From a virus, in the IMG/VR virus record IMGVR_UViG_3300049259_000040, positions 1 through 58,368 of that record: a stretch of DNA of 58,368 nucleotides. The stretch is one strand, 5' to 3'. The notes below the pieces were generated by a model, which did not search any database, had not been told where the DNA came from, and saw only the letters and a program-made list of their open reading frames with translations. Positions 3,656 through 58,368 of this stretch are shown here, in pieces. The position numbers and the translations under genes are program-made. How positions within the stretch are numbered: position 1 is the first letter of the stretch; every line of letters starts with the position of its first letter.

Positions 3656-3903
3656 GTCGTCACCTGCTCGATCTCCAGCAGCTCGTCTATTGCCGACAGC
3701 TGTGCACTGATGTCGCCGCGCATCCCGCTGTCACGCAAAACCGACCAGGCCTTGCGCACTTTTAGCAACGTCCACAGCGCGTCTTCGGCCGTAGCGCACG
3801 CGTCCTTCACGTCGGGAATATTGCTGTGCTTTGCGGCTATTCGCAGATGCACGATTGCTTCTTCGAATGCGCTTACCGTGTCGCGTCGTGCTTTGTCGGT
3901 CAT
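3652..3903 (-). CDS. First gene of the left minus-strand operon
   Basis: An 83-residue helical protein (MTDKARRDTVSAFEEAIVHL). It is the promoter-proximal gene of the array running down to 1214. CACGAAAGGGAAGACACC before the ATG is a variant of the upstream element, and a good sigma-70-type promoter (TTGACA and CATAAA, 17-base spacer) lies 37-65 bases upstream. Function unknown. Confidence 0.7.
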   Translation of the reverse strand: MTDKARRDTVSAFEEAIVHLRIAAKHSNIPDVKDACATAEDALWTLLKVRKAWSVLRDSGMRGDISAQLSAIDELLEIEQVTT

Positions 3904-3939
3904 GGTGTCTTCCCTTTCGTGTCGTTCGCTGTCGAGTCG

Positions 3940-4642: not shown

Positions 4643-4815
4643 TGCGTCTCCAGCCAGTAGCGAGCGTTGGCGTCGCAGTCCTCGGCAGCAGCCTCGATGC
4701 GATCCGCTTCGAGCGGGTAGCCCTCGCCGCGACGCTTTGCAGCCTCGCTCTTGAGGCGTGCGCTCTCCCGTTGCTCCACACGCGCTAGCAGTTCTCGACC
4801 TTGTTTTGATGTCAT
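4639..4815 (-). CDS. Very small helical protein (58 aa)
   Basis: A 58-residue charged helix (MTSKQGRELLARVEQRESAR...), ending in NARYWLETQ. A perfect copy of CGAACGGGGAAAC (minus strand, 4831-4819) ends three bases before the ATG, and the stop overlaps the next start. Function unknown. Confidence 0.7.
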   Translation of the reverse strand: MTSKQGRELLARVEQRESARLKSEAAKRRGEGYPLEADRIEAAAEDCDANARYWLETQ

Positions 4816-4818
4816 CGT

Positions 4819-4831
4819 GTTTCCCCGTTCG
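4819..4831 (-). promoter_or_regulatory. Upstream element CGAACGGGGAAAC
   Basis: Exact 13-base copy, reading on the minus strand, three bases before the ATG of the 58-residue gene. See the finding on this repeated element. Confidence 0.7.
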
Positions 4832-21737: not shown

Positions 21738-23084
21738 ATGGCGTCATTGGCTAACGTCAATGGTCTTTTCAAGCAACGTTACGGCCGCTGGATCGAGCCG
21801 CTTCCCGACGAGCACACGCTCGCGGACTTCGGCGACTTCATCCCGGCAGAGGCGCGTCCCGGCCTCGGCTACAACTTCCCGATCCTGAGTGCGATCGAGC
21901 ACGGTCAAACGGCCGACATCTCGGGCACTGCGTTCGCGCTGAACAGCGCGATCGACTCGAACGTGAAGAACGCGAACTTGGATGGCTCGACCATCATGTT
22001 GCGCGCGTCGATCCCGTACGACGTCATCTACAAGTCGTTGAACGGCACCGGCCAAGGCAACCAAGGCGGCGCGTTCAAGACCGCATTGGACCAAGCGGTC
22101 CAGGCGATGCTGATGGGCGCTGGGCTCTACCGCGAGCTCGCTCTCGCGTACGGCCCCGGCAGCAGCACGACGCTCGGCAGTAACATCGGCGTCGTCAACA
22201 GCATCACTGCTGGGACGAACGTCTCGGCGAACCTGACGATCTCGCTCACGCAGTCTTCGTGGATTCCAGGTCTCTGGATTCTCGCGCAGAACATGCTGAT
22301 CGACCTGTTCAACGCAGCCGGCACCACGCTGCAGTCGAACGGGCTGAAGGTCGTGGGCCGACCGGACCCGTCGAAGGCTCAGATCACCATCATCGCGACC
22401 GCTGCGACGACCACGGGCGGCACGTTCGTCCCTGTGGCTGGCAACGTGATCGTTCCGTACGGCTGGTTCAACAAGTCGTGCGTCGGCCTCGAAGCCATCT
22501 ACAACAACACCGGCACGCTGTTCGGTATCGACGCTTCCACGGTCGCTCCGTGGCGCGCGAACGTGTTCAGCGCCGGCAACGCTGCCCTGACTCGCGCGAA
22601 GATCATGTCTTACTGCGCGATCATCTCCATCAACGGCACGAAGAACGGAGGCAGCCTGTTCGTCAGTGCGCCGACGTTCGCCGCGCTCGCTGAGGAGTTC
22701 AACTCGGTGATGACGCCGTCAGCTTCGGGCATCGCCAGCGTCACCACATACGACGGCAACAACAACAAGCGTAGCAAGGAAATCGGCTCGTCCGAGCTTG
22801 CCTACGTGACCGCCGCTGGCGTGGTGAAAGTCGTCGTCTATCAGTACATGAAGCAAGGCGAAGCCTTCTTCATCGCGAACGACAACTTCCGCCGCGTGGG
22901 TTCGACCGACCTCACGATGCGTCCGATCGGCGGCGGCGCGGAAGCGTTCTTCCTGCAAGCGCCGAACAACGCGGGTGCTGAGATTCGTATCTACAGCAAC
23001 CAGGCTCCAGTGTTCGAGATGCCCTACCGGAACTTCCTGGTGAACAGCGTCGTCAACACCGGCTACGACGTGCCGCCCGTCTGA
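21738..23084 (+). CDS. Major capsid (coat) protein
   Basis: A 448-residue protein following the scaffold gene and preceded by its own leader with a strong ribosome site; length is close to P22 coat (430). N-terminal helix-turn (LFKQRYGRWIEPLPDEHTL), long beta-rich middle with many Gly, Thr and Asn, and a compact C-terminal domain ending YRNFLVNSVVNTGYDVPPV. A GC hairpin follows at 23099-23123, which would separate coat mRNA from the rest. No motif proves the HK97 fold, but order, size and composition do. Confidence 0.82.
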   Translation: MASLANVNGLFKQRYGRWIEPLPDEHTLADFGDFIPAEARPGLGYNFPILSAIEHGQTADISGTAFALNSAIDSNVKNANLDGSTIMLRASIPYDVIYKSLNGTGQGNQGGAFKTALDQAVQAMLMGAGLYRELALAYGPGSSTTLGSNIGVVNSITAGTNVSANLTISLTQSSWIPGLWILAQNMLIDLFNAAGTTLQSNGLKVVGRPDPSKAQITIIATAATTTGGTFVPVAGNVIVPYGWFNKSCVGLEAIYNNTGTLFGIDASTVAPWRANVFSAGNAALTRAKIMSYCAIISINGTKNGGSLFVSAPTFAALAEEFNSVMTPSASGIASVTTYDGNNNKRSKEIGSSELAYVTAAGVVKVVVYQYMKQGEAFFIANDNFRRVGSTDLTMRPIGGGAEAFFLQAPNNAGAEIRIYSNQAPVFEMPYRNFLVNSVVNTGYDVPPV

Positions 23085-28978: not shown

Positions 28979-30982
28979 ATGCCAACCCAAGACAACGGCT
29001 TCGGCGACTACTGGCAGAGCGCATTCGGACCCGGCGCAATCGCTCCCGGCCCCGTCGTGCAGGCGCCGACAGCTGCGTACCTGGCAGGAGGAGGAAACCA
29101 AGCCAGCGCCTACAACGGTGGCATGCCGTTGTCTCCCGAGGAGCAGGGGTTTCAGTCGCTGCTGAACGGGTACAACAACCAGCAGTCGACGATTGCCCAG
29201 AACCGACAGCAGCTCGACCTACTCGGGCGACTCGGTCAGAACACGACCAACATCGACCAGGACGCCATGAACGGCATCATGGGTCAGATTGGTTGGCAGG
29301 ACACCCAGAACGTCAACTTCGGCAACCAGTCGCAGGGGCTCGTCAACCAGCTTCAGGGCTACACGAACGATGCCAACTCCTACGACTGGGGAAACCTCGG
29401 CAACTATCAGTCACAGCTAGGTGCGATCAACGCCAGCAACAACTCCTACATGGGCGGTTATACCGCCCAGTACAACCAGCTGATAAACCCGATGTCATCG
29501 GGCGTGTCATGGGCCGGCGACCTGACATCGCAAGCAGCGCAGGCGTATGCCGACCCGCAGGCCATCGCGGCTCAGTACGCGGCGCAGGCGCAGCTCGCAG
29601 CCATCGGCAACGGTTCGCTCGATGTGTCGCTCTCGGGAAACCAGGGCTACCAGGGTCTGTTGAACTACGCCAACGGCGGCAACAAGGTCGACCCGATGTC
29701 GATCGTCGGCATGAACCAGCTGCAAGGCGTGGCGAATGGCTCGCTTGACCTGCATCCAGGCGACATCGACCCGCAGGCGTACGCAGCGCTCACCGATGCG
29801 CGCGACAAGTACAAAGGCTTGACGACGCCCGAGGTCACCGACGCTGAGCGGCTCATCTGGGAGCAGGCTCGACTCAACCAAGAGCAAACCGACCGCGCGA
29901 ATCGCACCGCGGTCAACTCGCAGCTGCGTCAGCGCGGACTGTCGGGGGCGGGACAGCAGATTGCCGGCAGCGCGCTGGCGTCGCAGACCAACAGCGAGAA
30001 CGCACTTCTTACCAGCCTCTCCGCGAACTCGAACGCGGTGCAGCGCGCAATGGCAGCCCTCGGCGGCTACGCCGACGTGTCGTCGCAGATGAATAATCAA
30101 GCGAACGCGCTCGGCTCGCAGAATCAGGGCACGCGTCTGGGCGCGCTCAACAACCTCACCGGCATAGGCGCTCAGATTGAGAACGCGAACGCGAACCGGC
30201 AGCTGTCAGCGACTGGGCAAGCGGCGGGCTTGTACGAGAGCAACGCGCAGAGCAACAACAACCGGCGCGCTGACGGTACGTACCAGGCCGGCCAACTCGC
30301 TTCCAACATGCGGTCGCAGAGCTTCAACGAATCCTACAGCCGCGGCCAGGCAGCTGACGCAACGGCGCAGTTCAACCGCGTGCAGTCGATCGGCGTCGAC
30401 GAGTACAACGGGCAGTTCGCCATGGCGGACGCGAACCGCCGAGCCAATCTCGCACAGAGCTACGCGCAGACCGGCATCCAGACGAACCAAATCAACGCTG
30501 GCAATGACCTGAACATGTTCAACGCGGGCGCTGCGACGAACGCAACCACGTTCGGGCGCAATCAGGGCGTGCTGCAAGCGCAGGACACCACGAACTCTCG
30601 CATCAACCAGCTGGCCCAACAGCAGACGAACGCGCGTCTGCAGGCCGGCTACGGCCAGATCGGCCTGAACGATGCGGCGTTCGGGCGCAACTCCAACCAG
30701 ATCGGCGCGGGCATGGGCCTGAATCAGCAATCGGCCGACGCGTACACCGGCTTGCAGCAAGGCATGGGCGGACTAGCGCTCAGCAGCAGCCAAGCGGCGG
30801 CGGCGAAGGCACAGGCGCAAGACGACAACGCCGGCGGCCCTGACTGGGGCAGCGGCGCAAAGGGGCTAGGCGTTGGCGCTGGAACGGGCGCTCTGATCGG
30901 CTCAGCTATCCCCGGCGTCGGCACTGCGATCGGCGCGGGCGTCGGCGCAGTAGCCGGCGGCCTGTACGGACTGTTCGCCTAG
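28979..30982 (+). CDS. Ejection (internal virion) protein, Asn/Gln-rich
   Basis: A 667-residue protein with extremely high Asn, Gln, Ala and Gly content and long helical arrays (QQSTIAQNRQQLDLLGRLGQ). The last 40 residues are a glycine-zipper/membrane segment (GVGAGTGALIGSAIPGVGTA). This is typical of podovirus proteins packaged in the head and injected to make a channel through the envelope. First of three consecutive long low-complexity genes, as in gp7/gp20/gp16 of P22. Confidence 0.6.
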   Translation: MPTQDNGFGDYWQSAFGPGAIAPGPVVQAPTAAYLAGGGNQASAYNGGMPLSPEEQGFQSLLNGYNNQQSTIAQNRQQLDLLGRLGQNTTNIDQDAMNGIMGQIGWQDTQNVNFGNQSQGLVNQLQGYTNDANSYDWGNLGNYQSQLGAINASNNSYMGGYTAQYNQLINPMSSGVSWAGDLTSQAAQAYADPQAIAAQYAAQAQLAAIGNGSLDVSLSGNQGYQGLLNYANGGNKVDPMSIVGMNQLQGVANGSLDLHPGDIDPQAYAALTDARDKYKGLTTPEVTDAERLIWEQARLNQEQTDRANRTAVNSQLRQRGLSGAGQQIAGSALASQTNSENALLTSLSANSNAVQRAMAALGGYADVSSQMNNQANALGSQNQGTRLGALNNLTGIGAQIENANANRQLSATGQAAGLYESNAQSNNNRRADGTYQAGQLASNMRSQSFNESYSRGQAADATAQFNRVQSIGVDEYNGQFAMADANRRANLAQSYAQTGIQTNQINAGNDLNMFNAGAATNATTFGRNQGVLQAQDTTNSRINQLAQQQTNARLQAGYGQIGLNDAAFGRNSNQIGAGMGLNQQSADAYTGLQQGMGGLALSSSQAAAAKAQAQDDNAGGPDWGSGAKGLGVGAGTGALIGSAIPGVGTAIGAGVGAVAGGLYGLFA

Positions 30983-39645: not shown

Positions 39646-40104
39646 CTAGCGCGCCGGCTGATTGACCGGGTAGGGGTTGGGCAGCATGCTCGCGTCCACC
39701 GTTCGCACCGACTCCTCCTGCACTGCCGGCAGCGGGTAGAGCGGTGAGCGCACCGACTGCGGAGCGACGGCGGGCTCGGACGCGCGCGGCTGGGTGCCTT
39801 CGGGGTGTTGCCGACGCCACGCGCGGAACTCGTCCAGCTCACGCTCCTTCTCGAGCTCTGAGCGCACCTCGGACTTGGCGACCTTTGCGGCAACCCCGGC
39901 GCCGATCGCGCCCAGTATCGCGCCGAGAATTGCGCCTTCCAGGACGTACACGCCAACCCCGGTCTCTCCGCGCTCAGCTGCGGAGATTGCGCCCGCACTA
40001 CCTAGCGCCATGCCGCCGCCAATAGCAGCCAGCGTTCCGTATCCGGTCGCGCAGCCGGAAAGCAACGTGCAGCTTACAGCGGCAGAAATGAGAGTTCTGT
40101 TCAT
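39646..40104 (-). CDS. Lipoprotein with glycine-zipper and coiled coil
   Basis: A 152-residue protein. Signal MNRTLISAAVSCTLLSGC ends in the lipobox LSGC (Cys18). Next a Gly/Ala-rich hydrophobic segment (LEGAILGAILGAIGAGVAAK), a charged helix (SEVRSELEKERELDEFRAW) and a Pro-rich end. The layout resembles bacterial glycine-zipper outer-membrane lipoproteins. It faces against the late operon and has ACGGGGAAAAG just before the ATG, like the early/lysogenic genes, so it may be expressed in the lysogen (for example superinfection exclusion). Confidence 0.65.
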   Translation of the reverse strand: MNRTLISAAVSCTLLSGCATGYGTLAAIGGGMALGSAGAISAAERGETGVGVYVLEGAILGAILGAIGAGVAAKVAKSEVRSELEKERELDEFRAWRRQHPEGTQPRASEPAVAPQSVRSPLYPLPAVQEESVRTVDASMLPNPYPVNQPAR

Positions 40105-40216
40105 CGTCTTTTCCCCGTCATTAGTGACGATATGCGGCGAGTGTTGCGGTTGACCCGGTCGGCATCATGATCAGTGCATGAGCGCGCAGTAACAAGCGCT
40201 CACAGGAGTCTTTGTT

Positions 40217-40510: not shown

Positions 40511-40707
40511 CGCACGAGCAGCTCGCCGAGCTCGCGGGGATGCTCGGTGAGCGGCTCGACATGGCAACGGCTGAGCTTCTCCAGTTCGTCCACAAGCAGA
40601 CCGGCAAAGAGCTGCAGGGCGAGGCGGTCGACCAGCTGCGCAGGCGTCTCGCTTGGCACCTAGCGTTGGCGGCGGCGGCTGTCGTCGACCAGACGTCACG
40701 ACGCTAG
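40507..40707 (+). CDS. Small protein paired with the holin-like gene
   Basis: A 66-residue helical protein (MTHEQLAELAGMLGERLDMA), GTG start in a GTGA overlap with the upstream gene. It ends with a weakly hydrophobic Ala-rich helix (LAWHLALAAAAVVDQT). Could be an antiholin or accessory; not recognised. Last gene of the late transcript. Confidence 0.45.
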   Translation: MTHEQLAELAGMLGERLDMATAELLQFVHKQTGKELQGEAVDQLRRRLAWHLALAAAAVVDQTSRR

Positions 40708-40752: not shown

Positions 40753-40807
40753 GCCCGGCCGCCGCGGGGGTTGGACGTTTCCCCGTTCCCCCTGTCGACG
40801 GCCGGGC
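40753..40807. terminator. Terminator region between convergent operons
   Basis: GCCCGGCCG (40753-40761) and CGGCCGGGC (40799-40807) are perfect inverted arms with a loop that can itself pair GGGGG with CCCCC. It lies between the + late operon and the - early region and could stop transcription from both sides. The remaining 40708-40884 holds no gene. Confidence 0.5.
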
Positions 40808-47815: not shown

Positions 47816-48063
47816 GCTGCGCTCTCCTCTGCGTCTCGCTTGCCGAGCTCGCGGCTAATCTCGTCCTTCAGCTGTCGCAATTCTCGGCGCCGAATCCTGA
47901 CCGCCTCCCTGCGCTCCCTGATGCGTTGGAGCTCGTGCGCGATCTGAGTCTCCTCAAGCTTCGCGTACTGCCGCGCGCGCTCGATGGGGTCGATGATGAC
48001 GAAGTCGCGTCCGTTCGCGTCTGTGAGCACTATCTGTGCGCTCGTGATGTCTGCAAATCCCAT
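47812..48063 (-). CDS. Small coiled-coil protein with upstream element
   Basis: An 83-residue protein. Beta-rich start (ITSAQIVLTDANGRDFVIID) then a charged coiled coil (RIRERREAVRIRRRELRQLK). An exact CGAACGGGGAAAC (minus strand 48079-48067) ends three bases before the ATG. Function unknown. Confidence 0.65.
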   Translation of the reverse strand: MGFADITSAQIVLTDANGRDFVIIDPIERARQYAKLEETQIAHELQRIRERREAVRIRRRELRQLKDEISRELGKRDAEESAA

Positions 48064-48066
48064 GTT

Positions 48067-48079
48067 GTTTCCCCGTTCG
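48067..48079 (-). promoter_or_regulatory. Upstream element CGAACGGGGAAAC
   Basis: Exact copy on the minus strand, three bases before an ATG. Confidence 0.7.
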
Positions 48080-53439: not shown

Positions 53440-53887
53440 CTCCGAGTTCGATGCCATCAAGTCGCGAATCGAAGCTGCGGCGCTCGTCCTTCGCAAAAGA
53501 GGCTACGGGCATTTCGATCCGGGTGAGCTCGGCTCTCCTGTAGAGCTCGCTCCGGACGTTATCGAACGCCTGGAGAATAGGCTCGACGATGACGCGCGCG
53601 GATTCTGCGAGCGCATGATCGAGCCGCTCAAGATGAAGGAGCCGCGTCTTCGGTGCGAGCAGTGCCGCGTTGCAGACCTCGGTCTGTGCGACGTGTGCAG
53701 CGCCGCCTTTCATGATGCGCGGAAAGTGCCGATCGAGACGACGCTGCCGCTCGATCAGGAGCTGCTGTCGCAGAACGCCGAGCATCAAATGCGGGTCGAG
53801 GCCAGCGTCAAATATCTGGAGATACTGCGGGAGCACCAGGCACAGGAACAGCGTGAGCTGCGAGCTGCGCTCAAGAACAGAAAGTAA
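53432..53887 (+). CDS. Hypothetical Cys-containing protein
   Basis: A 151-residue protein overlapping the dnaB stop. A C4 cluster CEQCRVADLGLCDVC (about 76-90) may bind zinc; the rest is helical (SVKYLEILREHQAQEQRELR). Likely a replication accessory protein by position, not recognised. Confidence 0.6.
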   Translation: MDDSEFDAIKSRIEAAALVLRKRGYGHFDPGELGSPVELAPDVIERLENRLDDDARGFCERMIEPLKMKEPRLRCEQCRVADLGLCDVCSAAFHDARKVPIETTLPLDQELLSQNAEHQMRVEASVKYLEILREHQAQEQRELRAALKNRK

Positions 53888-53895
53888 CGGGGAAA
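53886..53895 (+). promoter_or_regulatory. Upstream element variant AACGGGGAAA
   Basis: AACGGGGAAA ends three bases before the ATG at 53899; the leading CG is changed (GTAACGGGG). Confidence 0.5.
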
Positions 53896-53898
53896 GAC

Positions 53899-54153
53899 AT
53901 GTCAGACCAAACGACGATGATGGAGCGGCTCATTGAAGCCGCGAAGGATAGGGCAGCGGACCTCGCTGCACTGGTGCTGTTCGAACTGGTAGGGCTGAAC
54001 GACCGCGTGCTGCGCAGGTACGGTCGGCTGACGATGACGCGCATCACGCGAGAGATGCAGCGGATCTCTCAGCAGCAGCAGTCGATGGCGTATGGCTGCC
54101 AGGACCCGGACTGCCCAGAGTGCAGGCAGCAGCGCCAGCTCGAGGTGAACTGA
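53899..54153 (+). CDS. Small Cys protein
   Basis: An 84-residue protein (MSDQTTMMERLIEAAKDRAA) with helical body and CQDPDCPECRQ near the end, a possible zinc site. One-base overlap with the next gene. Function unknown. Confidence 0.6.
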   Translation: MSDQTTMMERLIEAAKDRAADLAALVLFELVGLNDRVLRRYGRLTMTRITREMQRISQQQQSMAYGCQDPDCPECRQQRQLEVN

Positions 54154-55013: not shown

Positions 55014-55026
55014 CGAACGGGGAAAC
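55014..55026 (+). promoter_or_regulatory. Upstream element CGAACGGGGAAAC
   Basis: Exact copy, four bases before the ATG at 55031. Confidence 0.7.
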
Positions 55027-55030
55027 GTTC

Positions 55031-55222
55031 ATGGATAAGACAGCTGAGGCACGTGCAGAGGGGTTAGACCTCGTTGACGACTTGCGCGCGCACATATTCC
55101 GCGCAGTGCGTCACGGTCTGAAGATCGATAGGTGGACGCTGGAAGCGCAACTGCGCGCGTCGTGCGACTTGCTCGCACTCGCCGGCCACATCGTCGATGC
55201 CGAACCGGAGAACGACCAATGA
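55031..55222 (+). CDS. Small hypothetical protein
   Basis: A 63-residue helical protein (MDKTAEARAEGLDLVDDLRA). Preceded by the 13-base element; overlaps a tiny membrane-protein frame. Function unknown. Confidence 0.6.
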   Translation: MDKTAEARAEGLDLVDDLRAHIFRAVRHGLKIDRWTLEAQLRASCDLLALAGHIVDAEPENDQ

Positions 55223-55672: not shown

Positions 55673-55685
55673 CGAACGGGGAAAC
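55673..55685 (+). promoter_or_regulatory. Upstream element CGAACGGGGAAAC
   Basis: Exact copy, three bases before the ATG at 55689. Confidence 0.7.
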
Positions 55686-55688
55686 AAC

Positions 55689-56045
55689 ATGTTGGGATTT
55701 TTGCTCGGATGGACAGCGCGAGGCGCTGCCGAAGACGTGGCCGATGAAGTTGCAGACGCTGTAGGCAAGGGCACGCGCGCTATAGACAAGGCTGGCCGTG
55801 CAGCGGCTGGCAAGATTGCCGAGGTCACGGGCTTGTCCTGCCCGAAGACGCTCGGGCCTCACTACTATCCGGAGTGGGATGAGAGCGTGAGTCCGCCGAC
55901 CAAGACGTGCCGCGATTGCGGGTACGTCGTGGAAATGACCGAGGGTAGCGCGACATGGAATCGCTACGTCGCTTCACACTCCGCTGACCCGGAGGAATAC
56001 GCTGAGCGCGACGAGCCGTCGCTCTTCACCAGGCTGTTCGGGTGA
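55689..56045 (+). CDS. Protein with amphipathic head and zinc-like CxxC
   Basis: A 118-residue protein: N-terminal MLGFLLGWTARGAAEDVADE, helical Ala-rich middle, TCRDCGYVVEM cysteine pair, and C-terminal FTRLFG. Recurrent hydrophobic LFG ends are also seen in other microproteins of this region. Immediately upstream of the holin-like gene. Unknown role. Confidence 0.55.
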   Translation: MLGFLLGWTARGAAEDVADEVADAVGKGTRAIDKAGRAAAGKIAEVTGLSCPKTLGPHYYPEWDESVSPPTKTCRDCGYVVEMTEGSATWNRYVASHSADPEEYAERDEPSLFTRLFG

Positions 56046-56910: not shown

Positions 56911-56923
56911 GGAACGGGGAAAC
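56911..56923 (+). promoter_or_regulatory. Upstream element variant GGAACGGGGAAAC
   Basis: Differs from CGAACGGGGAAAC at the first base; ends two bases before the ATG of the 20-residue frame. Confidence 0.6.
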
Positions 56924-56925
56924 GT

Positions 56926-56988
56926 ATGACGTTGATTCTAGCAATTGGGTTTCTGGTCTTCTTCGCTGGCGATGGAGACGACGAGTGA
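56926..56988 (+). CDS. Membrane microprotein (20 aa)
   Basis: ATG to TGA encodes 20 residues: a hydrophobic stretch (MTLILAIGFLVFFAG) plus DGDDE. Supported by the upstream element and by a GTGA overlap with the next gene. May be a small membrane peptide or a leader for the gene after it. Confidence 0.5.
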   Translation: MTLILAIGFLVFFAGDGDDE

Positions 56989-57371: not shown

Positions 57372-57384
57372 CGAACGGGGAAAC
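57372..57384 (+). promoter_or_regulatory. Upstream element CGAACGGGGAAAC
   Basis: Exact copy, five bases before the ATG at 57390. Confidence 0.7.
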
Positions 57385-57389
57385 AACAC

Positions 57390-57623
57390 ATGGGAATCTG
57401 GAACGCAATATTTGGTGGTGACGACGGCGAGATTGCATCGCTGCGTGGTCGAGTGGAGAAGCACGAAGAGATGTGCGGAGAATACGGCAAGGTCGGCGAG
57501 TACGCGGCGCTGCTGGCCAAAGGCATGCCTGGCGGGTCCGGTATGACGGCTTGGGAAGAGTCGCGCTTCTACAAGCTGCGCGACGAGATCGATCGGTGGA
57601 CGGCGAAAGGCTGCGGGCGCTGA
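57390..57623 (+). CDS. Small protein with WNAIFGGDDGE start
   Basis: A 77-residue protein (MGIWNAIFGGDDGEIASLRG). Acidic-basic helical body with two Cys (MCGEYG, KGCGR). Shares the W-x-x-(L/I)FG + acid start with its neighbours. Function unknown. Confidence 0.6.
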   Translation: MGIWNAIFGGDDGEIASLRGRVEKHEEMCGEYGKVGEYAALLAKGMPGGSGMTAWEESRFYKLRDEIDRWTAKGCGR

Positions 57624-58235: not shown

Positions 58236-58248
58236 CGAACGGGGAAAC
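58236..58248 (+). promoter_or_regulatory. Upstream element CGAACGGGGAAAC
   Basis: Exact copy, one base before the ATG at 58250 (the gene at position 9 on the circle). Confidence 0.7.
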
Positions 58249-58368
58249 AATGGCAGACACGATTACGGTCAGCTTGATCGACGCAGACGCTTGGGAAGAC
58301 GTATCGCCGCGGCAGTTCAAGGCGATCGGCGAGCGCTTCCTGCACGAACGTCAACGGCGAATCGAGGA
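58242..58368. repeat. Terminal redundancy (assembly overlap), right copy
   Basis: Identical to positions 1-127 and containing the first 39 codons of the gene at position 9. Joining the ends gives a continuous map with the promoter element intact. Confidence 0.95.

Follow-up and report, generated by a model that had tools for sequence, protein, structure and literature searches.

The window, by which we mean the whole stretch of 58,368 nt analysed here, corresponds to a circle: its first 127 bases are repeated as its last 127, which leaves 58,241 unique bases. A match to a major head protein is found at 21738-23084, and the window also encodes an integrase, a Sak4-like protein and a DnaB-like helicase. 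The labels of the terminase and of the rest of the structural block are putative; they come from homology with four relatives (G001-G004) and from gene order, not from family matches. The gene calls number 105. The caller scores a start a little higher when GGGG is near it, and this could slightly favour starts with the element described below. The phage collection we have searched contains no close relative, either by DNA or by the terminase-like protein. Five IMG/VR loci, four large records and one fragment, are related by their capsid, with about 60% identity. Searches for prophage relatives, as a route to the host, and for relatives of one non-structural protein found none, and an Rfam scan of the window gave no match.

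A 13-nt element, CGAACGGGGAAAC, is repeated in this circle. The copies and related features are the following:

58236..58248, plus strand: exact copy, 1 nt before the ATG at 58250 (gene 9-305 on the circle)
57372..57384, plus strand: exact copy, 5 nt before the ATG at 57390
55673..55685, plus strand: exact copy, 3 nt before the ATG at 55689
55014..55026, plus strand: exact copy, 4 nt before the ATG at 55031
4819..4831, minus strand: exact copy, 3 nt before the ATG at 4815
48067..48079, minus strand: exact copy, 3 nt before the ATG at 48063
56911..56923, plus strand: copy with 1 mismatch, 2 nt before the ATG at 56926, 20-codon ORF (MTLILAIGFLVFFAGDGDDE)
53884..53896, plus strand: diverged copy with 3 mismatches, before the ATG at 53899
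3907..3919, minus strand: diverged copy with 3 mismatches, before the ATG at 3903
40110..40118, minus strand: nine-base core ACGGGGAAA only, before the ATG at 40104
40777..40789, minus strand: orphan copy with 1 mismatch, not followed by a start codon
40753..40807: very stable hairpin which carries the orphan copy at the apex, the element on the minus strand and its complement, GUUUCCCCGUU, on the plus strand

As the record is circular, the gene opened by the ATG at 58250 is the one at 9-305, and the six exact copies are all distinct. Only 0.0015 exact copies would be expected on both strands under an order-2 model. When one mismatch is allowed there are eight copies (0.075 expected under the same model), and seven of these, on both strands, have an ATG 1-5 nt after them; the background chance of an ATG at 0-6 nt is 0.088. 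With up to two mismatches the number of matches rises to nine, against 1.6 expected. The additional one, at 29383, is in the structural block and has no ATG after it.

The original prediction placed exact copies 1-5 nt before the ATGs at 58250, 57390, 55689 and 55031 on the plus strand, and at 4815 and 48063 on the minus strand, and all of them are confirmed. The close variants it proposed are more uneven. The one before 56926 is real, with one mismatch, and opens only the 20-codon ORF; the one before 53899 has diverged at three positions, that before 40104 (minus strand) keeps just the core, and those before 41256 (minus strand) and 803 are weak and unconvincing. The copies at 3907 and 40777 are additions to that list. 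The 20-codon ORF, 56926-56988, is hydrophobic, has its own copy of the element and overlaps the GTG (56985) of the next gene. It may code for a leader peptide or a tiny membrane protein.

The distribution of the exact copies among genes is not uniform. They are found at six of the 44 starts preceded by a gap of at least 10 nt, against none of the 61 starts with a shorter one (p=0.004), and they lie 26-86 nt downstream of the preceding gene on the same strand. The copies had been said to occur only in the non-structural arms. This holds as a count, with a copy at 6 of the 75 called starts of non-structural genes and at none of the 30 of structural genes, a difference which is not significant alone (Fisher p=0.18).

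The genes with the element which we have tested encode small proteins. We have analyzed ten proteins, eight from genes with the element or a variant and two from neighbouring genes: none matches Pfam, two have weak PHROG matches and no RNA-binding protein has been identified among them. Small genes, mostly without family matches, with a repeated element at their boundaries might suggest a recombination linker, that is, short identical boundaries for the movement of small genes, kept by exchange instead of regulation. Nevertheless, the spacing to the ATG varies from 1 to 5 nt, the flanks are not shared, and it is the start codon, not the ends of the genes, which sets the position of the element. 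We consider this explanation extremely improbable.

When the seven copies associated with starts are aligned, 12 of the 13 positions are fixed. These 12 columns, together with the adjoining base at either end, are above the 99th percentile of random columns, while the remaining flanking columns are below it: conservation ends at the element. The Shine-Dalgarno core, GGGG, is inside it, and conservation extends past this core. Between the last base of GGGG and the ATG there are 5-9 nt, a normal Shine-Dalgarno spacing. The predicted duplex with the anti-Shine-Dalgarno sequence has -7.8 kcal/mol for the exact copies and a median of -8.7 for other starts, calculated with an actinobacterial-type 16S tail, which may not be that of the host. 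This pairing is average, the median of the other starts being at least as favourable, so that a stronger ribosome site does not by itself account for the fixed bases or for the exact identity of the copies.

The regions upstream of the copies have little in common. For six of the seven start-associated copies the best promoter-like score is at background level (random mean 6.89, sd 0.79), and no column is conserved at the distance of a -10 or -35 box. The copy at 55014 is the only one with a promoter-like pair above background (8.5), as would be expected if the element were the start region of mRNAs with a very short leader, with a promoter just upstream. Such a start region had been offered as one of two interpretations. 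It does not agree with the scores of the other copies, with the absence of conserved promoter columns or with the exact copies being placed 26-86 nt after a gene on the same strand, and we regard it as very unlikely.

Elements with this anatomy have already been described in other phages. Pope et al. define the Start-Associated Sequence (SAS) of cluster K mycobacteriophages, GGGATAGGAGCCC, with 11-19 copies per genome; a tight distance to the start codon separates it from stoperators, and the ESAS, an inverted repeat located upstream of roughly half of the cluster K sites, is outside the definition (PMC3203893). Cluster EF Microbacterium phages have a SAS of another sequence, with about ten copies and a weak ESAS (PMC7302621). 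According to a 2025 survey of 188 cluster K phages, the role of SAS still awaits experimental verification (PMC12699233). It is called ill-defined in the Adephagia paper, where gp51 is suggested to act on the translation of SAS genes (PMC11373665). We have found no functional test of SAS in the limited collection of literature searched. SAS were found again in our analysis, in loci L148, L149 and L205-L206.

The element of the window shares with the cluster K SAS its length of 13 nt, its asymmetry, the near-identical copies a few nt before starts which are mostly ATG, the association with genes after intergenic gaps and the conservation past the Shine-Dalgarno core. Cluster K SAS are restricted to non-structural genes, as the exact copies here are by count. 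It differs in sequence, it has fewer copies, it uses both strands and it has no ESAS-type element upstream: in the seven aligned copies, only the base adjoining the element is conserved. The EF SAS, which is independent of cluster K in sequence, has the same anatomy, a different consensus and a weak ESAS. The Shine-Dalgarno core of the window is weaker than those of K and EF, GGGG with a mismatch 5' of the core. Near-identical copies, proximity to an ATG, a gap before the gene and a Shine-Dalgarno core within a wider conserved stretch are all found here, and the element is best filed as a SAS: the kind has been described, while its consensus and the group of phages are new.

The stoperators of cluster A phages are also asymmetric 13-mers, oriented with transcription and located in short intergenic spaces; they are sites for a DNA-binding repressor, act on transcription and are not defined by their distance to a start codon (PMC9283540). 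A site of this type, with a repressor bound in the short gaps to halt transcription, would fit the length, asymmetry, orientation and location of our element. However, seven of the eight copies are 1-5 nt from an ATG, and such a distance is no defining feature of stoperators; it is on this ground that Pope et al. separate the two (PMC3203893). No phage repressor was identified in a non-exhaustive search of the window. We consider a repressor site improbable; the promoter and short-leader readings are, like this one, less likely than a role in translation.

Our preferred explanation is that this phage-specific SAS is an extended ribosome-binding site, a unit which serves small non-structural genes preceded by an intergenic gap. 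We give it a probability of about 0.6. It starts from what has been directly observed: the copies, their position and orientation, their association with gaps and the absence of conserved flanks. Position, spacing, the agreement between the strand of the copies and that of the genes, and their overrepresentation at genes preceded by a gap all support a ribosome site, from which we infer that the ribosome uses the element and that it acts in cis. SAS genes, coming after a gap, could not rely on translational coupling to the preceding gene. At the normal spacing, the GGGG core and the 3' end of 16S rRNA would form an imperfect duplex which includes one G-U. The flanking CGAAC and AAAC would be fixed for a further reason, most simply as a start region free of structure and adapted to the host ribosome.

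The original prediction combined a ribosome site with a translational operator. The first part is supported by the evidence just given. The second is possible: a phage protein or RNA would recognise the whole 13-mer and switch these genes together on or off. RegA acts in this way on the early genes of T4. An operator would account for 12 of 13 positions being fixed in seven copies when rRNA can pair with only part of them, and the orphan copy displayed in a hairpin also points in this direction. Pope et al. leave open both a SAS acting alone and one which binds a host- or phage-encoded RNA or protein (PMC3203893). On the other hand, the ten proteins analyzed have yielded neither a Pfam match nor an RNA-binding protein, and six SAS phages which we have checked do not contain an antisense orphan copy away from starts. 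We consider the operator a tentative alternative to an extended ribosome site.

A search for the motif in relatives had been proposed as a check. None of the five capsid relatives contains the motif of the window repeatedly, each of them has at most one single-mismatch 12-mer, and we have found no other relative which carries it as a repeat. G003, which shares structural genes with the window phage, has the same anatomy with a different sequence, (G/C)AAAGGACACGCT, whose AAAGGAC core is nearer to the EF SAS than the motif of the window is. A query with GAAAGGACACGCT and up to one mismatch finds ten matches in G003 (0.11 expected), nine of which are 0-4 nt before an ATG; two mismatches add two further matches, one of them before an ATG. 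The G003 motif is present at 8 of 56 starts after a gap and at 1 of 61 others (p=0.014, with one uncalled motif start excluded), and at 9 of 91 non-structural and 0 of 26 structural called starts (p=0.20). An 8-mer test in G001, G002 and G004 has revealed no comparable set.

Searching viral contigs for the motif followed by ATG gave at least 118 stretches, and 61 with a longer pattern, with one match in each. In one set of them a homologous gene is shared, preceded by this ribosome site; we interpret the rest as mostly due to chance. The gene in question is small (MYPS/MYPK...) and preceded by ACTAGnGAACGGGGAAAC or a near form, which resembles the context of the copy at 58236 in the window (L023, L028, L042, L044, L057, L061, L062, L069, L073, L076, L096 and L102). 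This likeness is apparently a case of convergence.

Two other repeats deserve mention. G003 contains a second start-associated repeat: four copies of GGGCTGAGCC are found directly before the ATG of neighbouring genes (L140:2750-3661), and three of these copies overlap a previous gene. In G001-G004 (L132-L147), 16 called starts, many of them structural, have a hairpin, CUC-CGGGAU-GAG, at 22-28 nt upstream. There are 19 copies in these four phages, 17 with exact CTCCGGGATGAG, one with a base change and one with an extra base; examples are L135:12943-12972 and L142:10198-10227, both on the minus strand. There is no copy in the window. The arms of the outer stem vary among copies and remain complementary, and the mean folding energy is -9.04, against -5.24 with shuffled 3' arms (none of 300 shuffles is as low). 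It has the look of a regulatory RNA element for late genes, one not yet described.

The orphan copy in the window, 40777-40789 on the minus strand, is in the gap between two convergent gene calls, which end at 40707 (plus) and 40885 (minus). None of 3000 random 61-nt windows is as stable as the hairpin at 40753-40807, on either strand; with an 81-nt window, 34 of 3000 are. A stable hairpin between convergent genes is ordinary, as a terminator. A near-exact SAS at the apex of such a hairpin is not.

A similar arrangement is found in two cluster K1 phages, Anaya and Adephagia, scanned from 20000 to the right end. Both have an orphan SAS whose other strand forms a hairpin with a 10-nt loop, CCUCCUAUCC, complementary to GGATAGGAGG. 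The local stability is unusual in Adephagia (56 of 3000) and weakly so in Anaya (163 of 3000). The homologous region has been matched in 128 phage records, 11 of which were folded: the exact loop is present in eight, CCUCCUUCCC in two, and Keshu has none. In the stem of ten phages 97.6% of 168 cells are paired, and two pairs have changes in both partners (a number attained in 78 of 500 shuffles); the covariation score is reached by 11 of 500 shuffles, so that covariation is modest. Covariation between loop and SAS was discarded as proof of pairing in trans, as the SAS of Hammy stays GGATAGGAG while its loop is CCUCCUUCCC.

Other SAS phages differ. No antisense orphan turned up in those parts of ZoeJ, Pixie, Kratio and Aminay which were checked, nor in AnnaSerena, and in Unicorn there is just a diverged loop. 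One minus-strand SAS copy is present in ZoeJ and one in Aminay, both of them before a leftward gene. G003 has an orphan SAS-like copy inside long inverted arms, GTGTTCGTGTCTC and GAGACACGAACAC, in a divergent intergenic region (L143, G003 60261-60400); we have not counted it as a further hairpin case because locally it folds no more stably than usual: of 3000 random 61-nt windows, 2125 are at least as stable. We should also note that a noncoding gap near the right end of cluster K genomes contains blocks conserved across subclusters: CTTTTAGACT, a GGCCCC hairpin and GGCTGGTCACC (L149:38448-38879 and homologous regions of L148, L155-L163 and L165-L166). It is possibly an unannotated RNA gene.

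The hairpins suggest that SAS sites might have an RNA partner: a hairpin RNA with the SAS complement as its apical loop (GUUUCCCCGUU for the window, CCUCCUAUCC for cluster K1) would pair in trans with every SAS ribosome site and shut off or time the whole set. Read on the other strand, the orphan would be a decoy. We hold such an RNA to be unlikely, possible but not general, because several SAS phages have no antisense orphan and the change in the Hammy loop is unmatched in its SAS.

In summary, the element is strongly non-random, and its most likely mechanism is extended translation initiation, in which a partner molecule may be involved. The window and G003 add two SAS consensus sequences, and we have found no close relation of these phages to clusters K and EF. 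Phage-specific SAS thus look like a recurrent solution, not a quirk of one cluster. As these two relatives have matching structural genes and different SAS, it is suggested that the element is tied to the non-structural arm. The orphan copy in a hairpin, also found in Adephagia, provides a concrete candidate partner for an element described in 2011. In the window, the hairpin is placed between the gene ends at 40707 (plus) and 40885 (minus), and might form the 3' end of the structural/lysis transcript. If the RNA partner is real, this hairpin would link structural and lysis transcription to the shut-off of the SAS genes.
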